A stretch of 64,000 nt of DNA from Kitasatospora sp. NBC_00315. Its GTDB lineage: Bacteria > Actinomycetota > Actinomycetes > Streptomycetales > Streptomycetaceae. The stretch lies in contig NZ_CP108025.1 in the NCBI RefSeq assembly GCF_041435095.1, forward strand, positions 1,798,001 through 1,862,000. Direction: 5' to 3'. The position numbers were made by a program, and so were the translations under genes. Shown piece after piece: positions 29,360-40,254 of the stretch. Position 1 is the stretch's first letter; each line of letters starts with the position of its first letter. Under the pieces are notes generated by a model. That model was not told the origin of the DNA and did not search any database. It was given only the letters and a program-made list of their open reading frames with translations.

Positions 29360-29417
29360 CCCGCGCGGCGCGAGCCGCCGCGTGGCGCGGCGCCCACGCG
29401 CGGTGTACAGAAGAAGC

Positions 29418-30548
29418 GTGCCCCTTCAGCAGAGCCCTGGAGACCATCGCCCGTGGTGGCGGGCCGGCCGCGCACTGCACCTGGTCCCGCTCCTGCTCAT
29501 CGTGGCCATCACCGTCGTCGACATCCTCTCGCCGCCGGACATCCACCTCGGGCCGCTGCTGATCGTCGCACCGGCCGTCACGGCCTCCTTCGCGGGCCCC
29601 CGGGCCACCGGCGTCGTCGGCCTGGTCGCCATCGCCGCCCAGGTGGTGATCGGCCTGCTGCGGGACGGGCTGACCACCTCCAACCATCTGGCCCAGCTCG
29701 CCGCTCTCGTCGTGGTGACGGCCTTCGTGGTCGCCCTGCGCGCGCTGCGCGACCGCCACGAGCGGGAGCTGGTCCAGGTCCGTACGGTGTCCGAGGCCGC
29801 CCAACGCGTCCTGCTGCGACCGCTGCCCGCCAGGGTGGGACCGCTGAGCCTGGCCCACGTCTACCTCGCCGCGGAGGAGGAGGCCCAGGTCGGCGGCGAC
29901 CTGTACGCGATCGCCCGGACGGCCGGCGGGACACGCCTGCTGGTCGGCGACGTCCGGGGGAAGGGGCTGGCCTCGCTCGGCGACGCCGCCCTGCTGCTCG
30001 GCGCCTTCCGGGCCGCCGCCCATCTGCACACCACCCTGCCCGAGCTGGCCCGCTACCTGGACGGCAGCATCTGCTGGGATCTCTCCCGGCCCACCGAGGC
30101 CGACGACCCGGGCGAGTCCTTCATCACCGCGGTGATCCTCGACTTCCCGGACGACGACGCGGTGATCCACATGATCGACTGCGGCCATCCCCCGCCGCTG
30201 CTGCTGCACGGGAGCGCCGTGACCGCGCTGACCACGCTCCGGCCGGCGCCGCCACTGGGCCTCGGCGAGCTGGCCCCCGCCGACTACGTGGTGGAGACCC
30301 GGCCGTTCCGGGCCGGCGACCGCCTGCTGGTCTACACCGACGGCGTGATCGAGGCCCGCGACGCCCGGCGCCGGTTCTACCCGCTCGACGAGCGGATCAC
30401 GGCGTGGGCGGCCGAGCACCCGGACGGCCTGCTCCGGCAGCTGCGCCGCGACCTGCTCGCCCACGTCGGCGGGCGGCTGGACGACGACGCCGCGATGGTC
30501 GCCGTCGAGCGGCTCGCCGACGTGGCGCCCGGGGCCGACCGGGCCTGA
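29418..30548 (+). CDS. Membrane SpoIIE/PP2C-family serine phosphatase
   Basis: A 376-aa protein. Residues 20-120 hold about four hydrophobic helices (LHLVPLLLIVAITVVDIL, AQLAALVVVTAFVVAL). The PP2C core follows: EEEAQVGGDLYAIA, LLVGDVRGKGLASL with metal-binding Asp, IDCGHPPPLLL, LLVYTDGVIEARD and DDDAAMVAV. Such enzymes dephosphorylate anti-sigma-factor antagonists in sigma-factor switching. GTG 29418 was chosen over an upstream ATG because the added residues are Arg-rich and out of family. No partner anti-sigma gene is adjacent. Confidence 0.92.
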   Translation: MPLQQSPGDHRPWWRAGRALHLVPLLLIVAITVVDILSPPDIHLGPLLIVAPAVTASFAGPRATGVVGLVAIAAQVVIGLLRDGLTTSNHLAQLAALVVVTAFVVALRALRDRHERELVQVRTVSEAAQRVLLRPLPARVGPLSLAHVYLAAEEEAQVGGDLYAIARTAGGTRLLVGDVRGKGLASLGDAALLLGAFRAAAHLHTTLPELARYLDGSICWDLSRPTEADDPGESFITAVILDFPDDDAVIHMIDCGHPPPLLLHGSAVTALTTLRPAPPLGLGELAPADYVVETRPFRAGDRLLVYTDGVIEARDARRRFYPLDERITAWAAEHPDGLLRQLRRDLLAHVGGRLDDDAAMVAVERLADVAPGADRA

Positions 30549-31403: not shown

Positions 31404-31937
31404 ATGACTGCGACCTCGGACACCACCCCGACCACCTTCGAGCCGCGGACGCCGCACGCGCCGCCCTCGCCGCCCGGATGGGAACGTCCGCTCCCGGTAC
31501 TCGCCCCGACCGCGTCGACGGCCTCGGTCCGCCGGCCCGTCCCGGCCGGGGCCGACGCCACGGTCGCCCGCCTGATGGGCCCGGTGGGACTCCAGCTCAG
31601 CGACGACGTCCTGGTGGACACCGCCATCGCGGTGATGTGCGGCGCCCGGGTGGACCGGCTGGTGACGCGTGATCACGACGGCCGCTGCAGCGGGATGCTG
31701 ACCAGTGCACAGCTCCGGCCCTACCGTGGCCGCACCTGGTACCGGGAGCACCTCGCCGTCCGCGACATCGTCCACGACGGCGGCCCGTACGCCCTGGCCG
31801 GCATGCCCGCCGGCACCGCCGAGAACGCGATGTCGGTGCGCGGCCTGGCGGCGTGGCCGGTGGTCGACTCCGACGGGTACCTGATCGGCGTGATCGCCCG
31901 CAGGACGCTCGCGCCCGAGAGCGCGGAGCGGGCCTGA
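31404..31937 (+). CDS. CBS domain protein
   Basis: A 177-aa protein with a disordered 50-residue head and a tandem CBS pair (Bateman module). The first half reads LMGPVGLQLSDDVLVDTAIAVM with VDRLVTRDHDGRCSGMLT, and the second ends AAWPVVDSDGYLIGVIARR. CBS pairs sense adenine nucleotides or other ligands. ATG 31404 is the first start giving the complete domain. The gene is divergent from the DUF5994 gene with a 265-bp spacer in between. Confidence 0.85.
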   Translation: MTATSDTTPTTFEPRTPHAPPSPPGWERPLPVLAPTASTASVRRPVPAGADATVARLMGPVGLQLSDDVLVDTAIAVMCGARVDRLVTRDHDGRCSGMLTSAQLRPYRGRTWYREHLAVRDIVHDGGPYALAGMPAGTAENAMSVRGLAAWPVVDSDGYLIGVIARRTLAPESAERA

Positions 31938-32150: not shown

Positions 32151-32201
32151 TTCACTCCCGTAACACAGTATGACTAGTATCGCTCCGTCAAAAGTCATAC
32201 T
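32151..32201 (+). promoter_or_regulatory. Conservon promoter with 9-bp inverted repeat
   Basis: TTCACT (32151-32156) and TAGTAT (32175-32180) with an 18-bp spacer form a plausible main-sigma promoter. AGTATGACT (32167-32175) and AGTCATACT (32193-32201) are a perfect inverted repeat 17 bp apart, spanning the -10 and start site. The region is clearly AT-richer than its neighbours. A repressor or activator site is likely. Confidence 0.55.
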
Positions 32202-32251
32202 CCAGACGGCCGGCCCCGACCCGGGCCGCCGCCTCCCCCGAGGAGAATGCT

Positions 32252-35158
32252 CTGCGCGCGCGTGCGAATCGGCGGACCGCTACACCTGGTCAGGGGGCGG
32301 CCGCGGGGCCGCCGCGTACCAGAGGCGGCCGATCCAGTAAAAAGCCCCCCCGGCTGTCCCTGCGAACGGCACTGCTCGTCCTCGCGGTGGTGCCGGGTAT
32401 CGCGCTCGCCGCGCTCTGGGCGGTGACCAGCGGTCAGACCGTCTTCGACTTCCAGCGACAGGCCGGCCAGGGCCTGCTCGCCCAGAAGGCCGGCCAGCCC
32501 TCCAACATCGTCTACTACAACCTGCAGGAGGAGCGCCGGCTCAGCGCCGAGGCGCTCGCCGACCCGGGCGCGCCGACCGATGCCCTGCGCGCCCAGCGGC
32601 AGAAGACCGACGAGGCGGTCCGGACCTTCCAGGCCCTCTCCGAGGACGTCGCCGCGGACGCCCCCGCCGAGGTGCGCTCGGCCGTGTTCCAGGCCCGCCA
32701 GGCGATGACCCAGCTCGACGCGGAGCGCGCCGGCGTGGACCACGGCACCGCCGAGCAACAGGCGGTGTACACCTACTACACCGACCTCATCTCGGTGGAC
32801 CTCTCGCTCTTCACGGCGCTCAGCCACGTCGACAACGGTGAGATGACGTACATCTCCCGCGTCCTGGTCGACGCCTTCTGGGCGAAGGAGATGCTGGCCC
32901 GCGAGGACGCCGTGCTGGCCCGCGGCTGGCAGTCCGGCAAGCTGAGCATGCAGGACCTCCAACTGGTCCAGCAGTCCATCGGCAACCAGGGGTTCCTCTA
33001 CGGCACGAAGGTCGGACCCTACCTTCCGGCCGGCGAGGCACCCGCCTACCAGGCGCTGATCAACAGCGACAGCTGGCAGGCCAAGGCGACGGTCGAGCAG
33101 TCGCTGACCCGCCCGACCGCCGCCGACGGCGCGGGCAACGTCAGGCTCCCGCCGCTCCACGACCAGTGGCGCCAGGCCGTCGACAAGGTCAACCCCCAGC
33201 TGATGAAGATCATGGAGACCCGTACCGCGGGCGTGGTCGACGTCGGCAAGTCGAGCATCCTGGGGCTGCTCCTCAAGGTGGCGCTGACCAGTGCCGTCGG
33301 CCTGATCGCGGTCATCGCGGTGATCCTGACCACCTGGCGGCTGACCCGCTCGCTGCGTCGCCGGATCCTCGAACTGCAGGCCCAGGCACAGGAGCTGGAG
33401 CGCACCCTGCCCGAGGTGGTGGAACGCCTCGGCCGCGGCGAGCAGGTCGACGTGGAGGCCGAGAGCCGGGCCGTCAGCGAGGGCGCCGGGACCACCTCGG
33501 GTGACGAGCTCGGCCAGCTCGGCCACGCGCTCAACTCCGCGCGCACCAGCGCGCTGGAGACGGCCGTGCGCCAGGCCGACCAGTACCGGGGCTTCGAGCG
33601 GCTGCTGCAGCGCATCGCCCGCCGCACCCAGCTGCTGATCGGCCTCCAGCTCAAGAAGCTGGACGAGCTGGAGCGCCGCCACGAGGACCCGGAGGTCCTG
33701 GAGGGGCTCTTCGACCTCGACCACCTCACCGCCCGACTGCGCCGATACGAGGAGAACCTGGTGATTCTCGCCGGCGGGCAGCCCCAGCGCCGCTGGCGCA
33801 AGCCCGTCCCCCTGCTCGACGTGCTGCGCTCCGCCCAGGGCGAGGTCCAGGACTACCGCCGGATCATGCTGGACGTCGAGGGCAGCCCGTGGCTGTCCGA
33901 GCGGGCGGTCGGCCCGGTGGCGCACGTGCTCGCCGAGCTGATGGAGAACGCGGCGACCTTCTCCCGGCCGCCCACACCGGTGGAGGTGCGGGCCGCGATC
34001 GTCGGCCGTGGCCTGGCCATCGAGGTCGAGGACCGGGGCCTGGGCATGGATCCGGAGCAGTTCGCGGCGGCCAACGAACTGATGAGCCGTCCGCCCCGGA
34101 TGGACGTGCTGGCCAAGGCCGACGACATCCGCCTCGGCTTCTACGTGGTGGCCCGGCTCGCGGCCAACGCCGGCCTGCGGGTGGAGTTCCGCCCCTCCGC
34201 GTTCGGCGGGACCAGGGCCGTGGTGCTCGTCCCGGCCGAGCTGGTCGCCGACGGGGATCCCGGCTACGACGCGGTGGAGCCGGTCGAGCCGATCCCGCTG
34301 CCCGTCCGGACCCGGGGCCGCGAGCTTCCCGGCGCCCCGGCCGCGCTGCCCGTCGCCGAGCCGCTGGCGTCCGTGGTGGCGCTGCCGGAGTACGCGGGCA
34401 CCGGGTACCCGAGCGCCGAGTACCCCACCGCCGAGTACCCGGGCACGGAGTACCCGGGCACCGAGCGCCCCGCCACCGAGTACGCCGCCCCCGAGTACGC
34501 CGGGGCCCCGTTCACCGGAGCCGACCACCGCGCCCCCGGTTTCGCGGAGCCCCCGTACGCCGAGGCGGAGTTCGCGGAGGCGCAGTTCGCGGAGGCCGAG
34601 TACACCGAGGCCCGGTACACCGAGACCGGCCTCCGGGCCCCCGCGCACCGCCCGGCCCCGTACGCGGCGTCGCCGTACCCGGCCGAGGACCGGCACACCG
34701 CCGCCTTCCGGGCCGCGGGCCGCCAGGGCGGCTACCTCGGCGAGGAGCACCGCGCCCCCGAGCAGCCGTACGCCGGCGAGCCCGCCCGCCCGGCCGCCCG
34801 CCCCTCCTGGGCCGCCCCCGAGTCGTACGGCGGCGAGGGGCTGGTGGAGGACGAGAAGCCGCTGCCGAAGCGGGTGCGCCAGGCCAACCTGGCGGCCGAA
34901 CTCCGGCTGCCACCGCCCGTGCAGGGAACGGCCCCGCAGGCCCCGGCCGCCGAGGACGACCCCTTCCGGCGGCCCGCCGCCCCGCGCCGCTCCGGCGCGG
35001 CGATCGGTGCCTTCCAGCGCCAGTCGCGGGTCGCGCGCAGCCAGGGCGAGCCGGACCAAGGACACCAGCAGCACCCCGCACCTCCCGCCCAGATCCCCTC
35101 CCCCTGGGACGGGCAGCAGGCGGATCCCCTCTCCCCTAGGACGGAAGACCGGACATGA
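32252..35158 (+). CDS. NIT-domain sensor histidine kinase of conservon (CvnA type)
   Basis: A 968-aa membrane sensor. The first helix (RTALLVLAVVPGIALAALW) and a second near residues 333-355 bracket an extracytoplasmic nitrate/nitrite-sensing (NIT)-like helical domain. After a linker come a coiled dimer region and an ATPase domain near 556-662, with AELMENAATFSRP (N box), GLAIEVEDRGLGM (G1) and LGFYVVARLA. The last 300 residues are disordered with many EYP, EYA and AEF units. The likely start is CTG 32252, with GAGGAG 6 bases upstream, giving RARANRRTATPGQ as in relatives; the next in-frame GTG (32387) would cut the first helix in half. First gene of the cvnABCD set. Confidence 0.88.
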   Translation: MRARANRRTATPGQGAAAGPPRTRGGRSSKKPPRLSLRTALLVLAVVPGIALAALWAVTSGQTVFDFQRQAGQGLLAQKAGQPSNIVYYNLQEERRLSAEALADPGAPTDALRAQRQKTDEAVRTFQALSEDVAADAPAEVRSAVFQARQAMTQLDAERAGVDHGTAEQQAVYTYYTDLISVDLSLFTALSHVDNGEMTYISRVLVDAFWAKEMLAREDAVLARGWQSGKLSMQDLQLVQQSIGNQGFLYGTKVGPYLPAGEAPAYQALINSDSWQAKATVEQSLTRPTAADGAGNVRLPPLHDQWRQAVDKVNPQLMKIMETRTAGVVDVGKSSILGLLLKVALTSAVGLIAVIAVILTTWRLTRSLRRRILELQAQAQELERTLPEVVERLGRGEQVDVEAESRAVSEGAGTTSGDELGQLGHALNSARTSALETAVRQADQYRGFERLLQRIARRTQLLIGLQLKKLDELERRHEDPEVLEGLFDLDHLTARLRRYEENLVILAGGQPQRRWRKPVPLLDVLRSAQGEVQDYRRIMLDVEGSPWLSERAVGPVAHVLAELMENAATFSRPPTPVEVRAAIVGRGLAIEVEDRGLGMDPEQFAAANELMSRPPRMDVLAKADDIRLGFYVVARLAANAGLRVEFRPSAFGGTRAVVLVPAELVADGDPGYDAVEPVEPIPLPVRTRGRELPGAPAALPVAEPLASVVALPEYAGTGYPSAEYPTAEYPGTEYPGTERPATEYAAPEYAGAPFTGADHRAPGFAEPPYAEAEFAEAQFAEAEYTEARYTETGLRAPAHRPAPYAASPYPAEDRHTAAFRAAGRQGGYLGEEHRAPEQPYAGEPARPAARPSWAAPESYGGEGLVEDEKPLPKRVRQANLAAELRLPPPVQGTAPQAPAAEDDPFRRPAAPRRSGAAIGAFQRQSRVARSQGEPDQGHQQHPAPPAQIPSPWDGQQADPLSPRTEDRT

Positions 35159-35592
35159 CGCGCACCATCGCCACTCACCAGGATCTGGACTGGCTGCTGG
35201 ACGGACTCGTCGACTCGGTGGCCGGCACCAGGCACGCCGTTCTGCTCTCCGACGACGGCCTGGTGGTCAGCCACTCCCGGAGCATCGACCGCTCGGACGC
35301 CGAGCGCCTGGCCGCCGTCGCCACCGGCCAGCAGAGCCTGGCCCGCGGCGTCGGGCAGCTCTTCGACGGCGGCCAGGTCCACCAGGTGATCGTCGAGCTG
35401 GCCGACCTCTGGCTGTTCATCATCGCCGCGGCCCAGGGCACCCACCTCGCGGTGGTCGCCTCCCAGGAGGTCGACGCCGAGGTCATGTCGATGGCCATGC
35501 ACACGCTGGTCCAGCAGGTCGGCCAGAAGCTCGCCACCCCCACCCGCTCCAGTGAGTTCGACGCGTTCGCCGCCCGGGGTGGACGAGGGTGA
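35155..35592 (+). CDS. Roadblock/LC7 domain protein (CvnB type)
   Basis: A 145-aa protein of the longin-like roadblock/LC7 fold. It reads DLDWLLDGLVDSVAGTRHAVLLSDDGLVV then HQVIVELADLWLFIIAAAQGTHLAVV. In conservons CvnB partners the GTPase CvnD and probably acts as a GTPase-activating or membrane-linking subunit. ATG 35155 overlaps the kinase stop in ATGA (35155-35158), implying coupled translation. Confidence 0.95.
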   Translation: MTRTIATHQDLDWLLDGLVDSVAGTRHAVLLSDDGLVVSHSRSIDRSDAERLAAVATGQQSLARGVGQLFDGGQVHQVIVELADLWLFIIAAAQGTHLAVVASQEVDAEVMSMAMHTLVQQVGQKLATPTRSSEFDAFAARGGRG

Positions 35593-36020
35593 GGCCGCAC
35601 TGGAGCGACGAGGAGGAGGACGACGAGGATCTGTCGGGCACCATGGTGCGCCCGTACACGATCACCCGGGGCCGGACCGCCCCGGAGCGCGACGACCTCA
35701 CCCTCATCACCGTGCTGACGACCGTCCAGGACGGCGGCCGCGCGGAGTTCGGGCGGACGGGTTTCGACCGCGCCGCCCGGACCCCGCGCGGGCTCCAGCC
35801 GGAACACCGGCTCATCCTCGACCGCTGCCGCCGGCCGGCCGCGGTGGCCGAGGTGGCCGCCGATCTCAACCTGCCGGTATCGGTGACCAAGATCCTGCTG
35901 GGCGACCTGATCGCCCAGGGCCTGCTGCTGGCCCGCGCGCCGCTCTCGGTGGCGGTGGCCGGCGGCGGAGTGGACCTCGGCCTGCTCAGGGCCGTTCGCG
36001 AAGGACTCCGGAGACTGTGA
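35589..36020 (+). CDS. DUF742 protein (CvnC type)
   Basis: A 143-aa protein with an acidic N-terminus (SDEEEDDEDLSG), the DUF742 marker MVRPYTITRGRTAP and a winged-helix-like PAAVAEVAADLNLPVSVTKILLGDLI. Its role in the conservon complex is not settled; the HTH-like fold suggests regulation. GTG 35589 overlaps the upstream stop in GTGA. Confidence 0.95.
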   Translation: MRPHWSDEEEDDEDLSGTMVRPYTITRGRTAPERDDLTLITVLTTVQDGGRAEFGRTGFDRAARTPRGLQPEHRLILDRCRRPAAVAEVAADLNLPVSVTKILLGDLIAQGLLLARAPLSVAVAGGGVDLGLLRAVREGLRRL

Positions 36021-36616
36021 ACACCATGACAATCGGGACGAACGGTCAGACCGCACCCGCCGCCGTCAAGATCCTGATCGCCGGCGGGTTCGGCGTGGGC
36101 AAGACCACCCTGGTCGGCGCCGTCAGCGAGGTGCCGCCGCTGCGCACCGAGGAGTACCTGACCAAGGCCAGCGTCGGCGTCGACGACCTGAGCGGTGTGG
36201 ACAACAAGAGCACCACCACGGTGGCCCTGGACTTCGGCCGGATCACCGTCAGCAGCGAGCTGGTGGTGTACCTGTTCGGCACGCCGGGCCAGGAGCGCTT
36301 CTGGTTCATGTGGAACGACCTGGTCAACGGCGCGCTCGGCGGGATCGTCATCGTCGACACCCGCCGGGTGGAGAGCAGCTTCGCGTCCATCGACTTCTTC
36401 GAGAGCCGGGGCATCCCCTTCGTGGTCGCGATCAACTGCTTCCACGGCCGCAACACCCGTACGGCGGAGGAGATCAGGGGCGCGCTGGACCTCGACCCGC
36501 AGGTCCCGATGCTGCTCGGCGACGTCCGCGAGCGGGCGTTCGGCCGCGATCTGCTGCTCGCGCTGGTCGACCACCTGATGACCCTGCCCGCCCCGCTGGC
36601 CGCACCGGTCGGCTGA
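36017..36616 (+). CDS. Conservon small GTPase (CvnD type)
   Basis: A 199-aa MglA-like GTPase. The P-loop is GGFGVGKTTL (about residues 22-31), and the G3 region reads LFGTPGQERFWFMW. KKASVGVDD-like TKASVGVDDLSG lies in switch I. With CvnA-C it forms the membrane-associated complex thought to resemble eukaryotic G-protein signalling. GTG 36017 overlaps the DUF742 stop in GTGA; ATG 36026 three codons later is an alternative start. Confidence 0.95.
   Translation: MNTMTIGTNGQTAPAAVKILIAGGFGVGKTTLVGAVSEVPPLRTEEYLTKASVGVDDLSGVDNKSTTTVALDFGRITVSSELVVYLFGTPGQERFWFMWNDLVNGALGGIVIVDTRRVESSFASIDFFESRGIPFVVAINCFHGRNTRTAEEIRGALDLDPQVPMLLGDVRERAFGRDLLLALVDHLMTLPAPLAAPVG

Positions 36617-37929: not shown

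Positions 37930-40254
<2,325 letters not shown>

Follow-up and report, generated by a model that had tools for sequence, protein, structure and literature searches.

Introduction

Few of the non-canonical start codons of bacteria have been studied (PMC5472188). The gene for initiation factor IF3, infC, starts with ATT in Escherichia coli and with ATC in Streptomyces (PMC5472188). In Streptomyces, sigR starts with GTC, a codon that is repressed by IF3 and conserved in 32 of 34 species; when GTC is replaced by a canonical codon, SigR is overproduced relative to its partner (PMC5472188). As for CUG, its initiation complexes are reported to be of lower stability than those formed on AUG, GUG or UUG (PMC11497404), and a survey of 36 genome triplets recorded only two switches to CUG among 61,358 reconstructed ancestral AUG starts (PMC5622118).

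We describe here a sensor-kinase gene of Kitasatospora sp. NBC_00315 for which the sequence comparisons make CTG 32252 the start codon with high probability. Coordinates refer to the window, the whole stretch of 64,000 nucleotides that was analysed (contig NZ_CP108025.1, positions 1,798,001 to 1,862,000 of the forward strand).

The kinase gene and its conservon

The coding features are as follows.

32240..32245, forward strand: Shine–Dalgarno sequence GAGGAG, read from the sequence, with its GGAG core 6 bases 5' of the CTG
32252..32254, forward strand: CTG, the probable start codon, present in 102 of 102 orthologues, with no change at any of its three bases on a tree of 75 tips
32252..35158, forward strand: sensor histidine kinase of the CvnA type, 968 amino acids, from profile matches to NIT and HATPase_c
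35155..35592, forward strand: CvnB, roadblock protein (Robl_LC7, E = 3.1e-23)
35589..36020, forward strand: CvnC, DUF742 protein (DUF742, E = 1.3e-30)
36017..36616, forward strand: CvnD, small GTPase (PF03029, E = 7.1e-30), starting at GTG 36017 or ATG 36026

An in-frame TGA at 32171-32173 bounds the kinase frame upstream, and from 32174 it stays open as far as 35158. Read from the CTG, the protein consists of a basic N-terminal segment, a first membrane helix, a NIT sensor domain (E = 3.3e-34) and a HATPase domain (HATPase_c, E = 4.6e-9), and it ends in a long low-complexity tail; the helix and the tail were judged by eye. An earlier note on this DNA had pointed to the GAGGAG at 32240-32245, properly spaced from a CTG in the kinase frame, and had reported no in-frame ATG, GTG or TTG ahead of GTG 32387. 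Both statements hold, with six bases between the core and the CTG and with no such codon from the TGA onward. GTG 32387, the 46th codon when the CTG is taken as the first, lies within the first hydrophobic helix, as was also said (helix LRTALLVLAVVPGIALAALWAV, by visual inspection). The remaining nearby candidate, ATG 32247, had rightly been described as out of the kinase frame and too close to the ribosome site; it lies one base past the Shine–Dalgarno sequence.

Since genes for a roadblock protein, a DUF742 protein and a small GTPase come next, the kinase is by its gene content the CvnA that heads a four-gene conservon, an actinobacterial G-protein system. The four genes are adjacent and in the order CvnA kinase, CvnB roadblock, CvnC DUF742 and CvnD GTPase, and the kinase stop overlaps the ATG of CvnB as ATGA. 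The match of CvnD to PF03029 is over the cut-off of that model, and its match to TIGR00231 (small_GTP) is below the cut-off. The same NIT-type sensor with a HATPase domain, followed by roadblock, DUF742 and GTPase genes, is described for CvnA of actinobacterial G-protein systems (PMC13343842), in a paper whose main text does not contain the term 'start codon'. Eleven other matches occur in the genome of the window; three of them were inspected by eye and all have ATG candidates, so the CTG start is not a feature of the family at large.

Two neighbouring regions may be recorded here. Upstream of the conservon are a SpoIIE-type phosphatase gene (29382-30548) and a CBS-domain gene (31404-31937). 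Downstream of the conservon and of an FAD monooxygenase-like gene lies a two-domain terpene cyclase (37939-40254), which matches NF041168, the family 2 encapsulin cargo terpene cyclase, scoring 1220.5 bits where the cut-off is 1200.

Relatives and trees

Relatives were drawn from 61 genomes, that of the window included, and from 75 loci with organism names. A search of 394 genomes of the family gave a match in 80, the own genus accounting for 57 matches in 70 genomes, and of 392 genomes in the genus to which G410 belongs, 25 had a match. The best named relatives are Kitasatospora, with 84% identity over 383 residues in K. indigofera. When 175 homologous loci were screened for the helix pattern, five failed; L161 and L167 were restored by hand, and L174, L179 and L180 were excluded as distant homologues of 35-39% identity. 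The start motif was not found in L178.

Start regions were classified by a rule that allowed any leucine or canonical start codon, beyond CTG, and that demanded R-x-R after the codon and an SD-like tetramer before it. By this rule 21 of 112 distinct regions were placed outside the CTG clade, either for an ATG or GTG placed two codons upstream or for being distant. The CTG clade itself numbers 102 distinct start regions after removal of duplicates, with the window counted in, and is made up of Kitasatospora and a subset of Streptomyces (S. halstedii, S. laculatispora, S. atratus, S. griseomycini, S. calvus and others). Changes were counted on a tree of 75 of 91 CTG regions (at least 300 codons), built with the first 12 codons omitted and having a length of 8.9. 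The origin of the start was traced on a protein tree of 86 of the 102 CTG-clade genes and 14 outgroup genes, rooted on two distant genes. A DNA pattern scan of the 394 genomes was unusable for start-codon counts: 342 matched, and the reversed control frequently matched too.

Conservation of the initiation region

The aligned start codon is CTG in all 102 distinct orthologous start regions, and in all 57 genomes of the own genus that carry the gene. It stands behind a ribosome site, GGAG lying 5-7 bases upstream in 101 regions (six bases in 98, seven in two and five in one), with GGAC in the remaining region. In the orthologues that carry M-R-x-R-A-N-R-R the codon is likewise CTG in place of a canonical one; comparison with orthologues had been proposed in the earlier note, which expected that N-terminus. 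The expectation was borne out in some orthologues (codon 6 is AAT, for Asn, in 28 of the 102) and failed in others, where the protein begins, for example, RTRASRR or RARRAS.

On the 75-gene tree each base of the CTG changes zero times, against a mean of 8.3 for third positions; 19 of 324 third-position columns and 64 of 324 first-position columns are also unchanged. The GGAG bases change 0, 0, 1 and 1 times, whereas spacer bases -6 to -4 change 10, 7 and 9 times. A comparison with leucine codons inside the protein is instructive. In the 75 aligned genes there are 22 further columns in which leucine makes up 90% or more; their CTG fractions range over 0.05-0.91 and they undergo 5-21 codon changes, whereas the start column is CTG in 75 of 75 and undergoes none. 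Codons 2-4 are likewise conserved. Codon 2, with CGC in 73 of 75 genes, is nearly as conserved as the start, and for this reason the constraint may, at least in part, cover the initiation region as a whole beside the start codon.

In 40 of the 102 regions, the window among them, there is no in-frame ATG, GTG or TTG from the nearest upstream stop to the first helix; the remaining 62 have an upstream or a downstream canonical candidate. CvnB served as a control for drift of the start. It has ATG in 25 of 30 distinct regions, and the other five are distant homologues in which the projected position missed the start; CvnB therefore shows no start drift and offers no contrast to the kinase.

The leader

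Two features were noted upstream of the ribosome site.

32151..32180, forward strand: promoter-like element, TTCACT (32151-32156), an 18-base spacer and TAGTAT (32175-32180), picked out by eye
32207..32231, forward strand: leader stem-loop, from predicted folds, just upstream of the ribosome-binding site

The promoter-like element, a putative promoter judged from its sequence, overlaps a block that is conserved among the orthologues, and a TAGTAT-type element lies 70-80 bases upstream of the CTG in 75 of 78 genes. In the window the strongly conserved block, TATGACTAGTATC..CGTC, occupies 32151-32190; it is partly present in another family (L029, L030). A perfect 8-base inverted repeat, AGTATGAC/GTCATACT, surrounds the promoter-like block in the window only, among the 102 regions.

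All 102 single-sequence folds have position -24 in a base pair. Folding was scanned in 60 of the 102 genes with 21 segments of 40 bases between -75 and +225, and the segment centred at -30 gave the minimum, with a mean z of -1.78 +- 0.14; of the folding analyses this one gave the clearest signal. The maxima were at the CTG (+0.91 at 0) and at +15 (+1.19); weak folding at the start is the pattern expected of an initiation site. For the 48-base stretch between -62 and -15 the mean z was -0.89 over 102 leaders, as against -0.14 for a coding control of 87 genes. Whole leaders of about 100 bases folded no better than shuffles in the six tested (z from -0.18 to 1.28). The stem sequence diverges between groups (CCAGTC/GGCTGG, CCGGCC/GGTCGG and GAACGG/CCGTTC) and these differences look compensatory by inspection of the sequences. 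With RNAalifold, a poor alignment of 15 leaders gave -3.61 kcal/mol and change on both sides in three of 15 pairs, and a poor alignment of 84 leaders gave no leader stem. The stem-loop has no match in Rfam. In the best fold of the window a 4-bp stem pairs GAGG of the Shine–Dalgarno sequence with CCTC, which is not general among the leaders. A leader stem is found too in relatives of the ATG clade and in some of the GTG clade, at a different position.

These features bear on the most serious competing interpretation, namely that the CTG is the start but that the initiation region is held by a different function of the RNA or DNA and not by low output or IF3. The conservation of codons 2-4 and of the position of the stem-loop speaks for it. 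It is more difficult to reconcile with the freedom of bases -6 to -4, or with the fact that the C-to-A, C-to-G and C-to-T changes, each of which would strengthen the start, are never seen in 75 genes. We consider this interpretation possible, with a substantial but clearly lesser than even chance of being correct.

Other candidate start sites

Were translation to begin further downstream, at GTG 32387 or at the ATG that orthologues carry 12-14 codons after the CTG, a shorter protein would result. That ATG is present between the CTG and the helix in 42 of the 102 orthologues, just 5' of L-R-T-A-L-L, and in 15 of the 42 it is preceded by GGAG at 13 bases. The distribution of changes over codon positions also speaks for it: in 35 genes with the downstream ATG the signature of coding sequence is strong in the 25 codons that follow (21, 7 and 82 changes) and weak in the stretch between CTG and ATG (17, 16 and 25). 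The same stretch is nevertheless constrained, even if its coding signature by itself is weak, since it has accumulated 58 changes in 39 bases compared with 184 over positions -36 to -13, a stretch of 24 bases. An SD-like tetramer within -14 to -5 precedes the ATG in none of the 42 genes and the CTG in all 42 of them, and 13 bases is a long spacer. In addition, 56 of the 102 regions have no canonical codon between the CTG and the helix, including L156, in which a CTG is aligned with that ATG, and a start at GTG 32387 would cut the first helix. Downstream ATG and GTG starts, without a well-placed Shine–Dalgarno sequence, were rejected and we judge them very unlikely.

The CTG motif is in frame with the helix in all 89 genes that were found by a frame-free pattern, over 13 linker lengths; two of the 91 genes were not found in this way. 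The 91 genes had been pre-selected for an in-frame candidate, a step that cost no orthologue because the 21 regions set apart are of the ATG/GTG type or are distant relatives.

A canonical start upstream of the CTG, such as the ATG of the conserved TATGACTAGTATC block, is more improbable still. Some in-frame ATG, GTG or TTG does occur between the upstream stop and the CTG in 37 of the 102 regions, and in a few of them, such as L003, L005 and L014, the block's own ATG shares the kinase frame. Against this, the promoter-like block keeps no constant frame with respect to the kinase, its distance to the CTG falling into each of the three (39, 21 and 18 of 78 genes), and the ATG of the block is lost in some species, being GTG in L020 and GCG in L023. 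The other 65 regions have no upstream canonical codon. An in-frame stop lies five codons or fewer upstream of the CTG in nine of the 102 regions, and nine read TAGGAG, which puts an in-frame stop inside the Shine–Dalgarno sequence itself. Bases -20 to -12 change 3-15 times each on the 75-gene tree. The upstream start was rejected on the three-frame distances of the block and on the in-frame stops.

A start at ATG 32247 (GAATGCTCTG), which is out of frame and would need a subsequent frameshift to reach the frame of the kinase, can draw on an ATG at the same place in 48 of the 102 orthologues; this candidate was rejected because only those 48 have it and 54 do not, and with the ATG sitting too near the Shine–Dalgarno sequence we find it barely credible. 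The other half of the choice offered in the earlier note, that either CTG initiates or a base error at 32252 hides a GTG (or an ATG), is ruled out in practice by the CTG of 102 of 102 orthologous regions and of every one of the 57 own-genus genomes that carry the gene, and its likelihood is negligible; the first half, initiation at CTG, receives strong comparative support.

Probable origin of the CTG start

The CTG clade is monophyletic with a support of 0.78 in the protein tree of 86 of the 102 genes, and it is joined with a support of 1.0 to a sister clade that reads ATG-GCN-CTG (M-A-L-R). This ATG clade consists of Streptomyces (S. megasporus, S. verrucosisporus, S. radiopugnans, S. pini, S. 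barkulensis, S. lycii, DH37 and one other). Farther relatives read GTG-GCA and then CTC, CTT or GTG. From these two groups together, the ancestor probably began M-A-L/V. At the place of the ancestral start the CTG clade has AAT, CAT, TCA, TCT and other codons, and the third codon is its sole conserved start candidate. Given a monophyletic CTG clade and a sister clade with ATG two codons upstream, we infer that the ancestral start was lost once and that the codon for Leu-3 was turned into a start.

The sister clade deserves a comment of its own. In L096-L100 and L108 the GGAG is two bases from the ATG and eight from the CTG, and in view of these distances the sister clade may itself use the CTG as a start.

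Proposed mechanism

Our preferred explanation, which we hold to be likely overall, combines a CUG start, a strong ribosome-binding site, retention for low output and an origin from Leu-3. The ribosome-binding site, six bases upstream, would direct initiation at the CUG of 32252, which the initiator tRNA would read as fMet to give M-R-A-R-A-N-R-R... The leader stem-loop may aid the loading of ribosomes or bear further control. Because CUG is a poor initiator and is discriminated against by IF3, the kinase would be made at a low rate per mRNA. ATG, GTG and TTG are each one base away, and the retention of CTG would reflect selection against them. That about 100 orthologues keep the same poor start signal suggests its deliberate use for a scarce protein.

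The probable purpose would be to hold the kinase at a low level compared with CvnB, CvnC and CvnD, with a synthesis that is sensitive to IF3 as in the case of sigR. For this part, scarcity relative to the partners together with a role for IF3, the argument is by analogy and we regard the chances as evenly balanced; low output could be selectable also without regulation by IF3. In its most complete form the proposal is that the whole clade depends on CUG as an obligate start, that this start goes back to a single capture of an internal leucine codon, and that selection maintains it to throttle translation of the sensor in a bacterial G-protein system, probably with gating by IF3 and help from the stem-loop. 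Taken in its entirety it is tentative, and we would put it a little short of even.

There is a practical consequence. Gene finders that are limited to ATG, GTG and TTG would misplace the start of this kinase, and in the window the first codon available to them cuts the first membrane helix.

Comparison with known systems

Conserved non-canonical starts are already known; what is new here is the codon, the class of gene and the traced origin. Among the matches listed in the open-access literature there was no report of a conserved CUG start in these bacteria. The maintenance of CUG in about 100 orthologues is unusual in view of the two switches to this codon per 61,358 ancestral AUG starts (PMC5622118). 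The locus offers a natural test of why selection should retain a weak start, and the path by which a non-canonical start arises, through loss of the ancestral codon and capture of Leu-3, can be traced in it.

With infC the kinase gene shares a conserved non-canonical start codon (PMC5472188). The start of infC, however, provides autoregulation of IF3, and the kinase is not a translation factor. In the genome of the window infC (L209, about 1480-1500) reads GAGGAGG-CCCC-ATC, with a strong Shine–Dalgarno sequence, which is consistent with an ATC start there.

The closest precedent for the CTG start of the kinase is sigR (PMC5472188). In both, a non-canonical start is kept across a genus behind a strong ribosome site, in the same bacterial family, and a regulatory gene is followed by the gene of a partner through an ATGA overlap. 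They differ in the codon, CTG instead of GTC, and in the product, a membrane sensor kinase instead of a sigma factor. Control by IF3 has been shown for sigR and is proposed for the kinase by analogy, and it is for the kinase that the start has been traced to an ancestral Leu-3.
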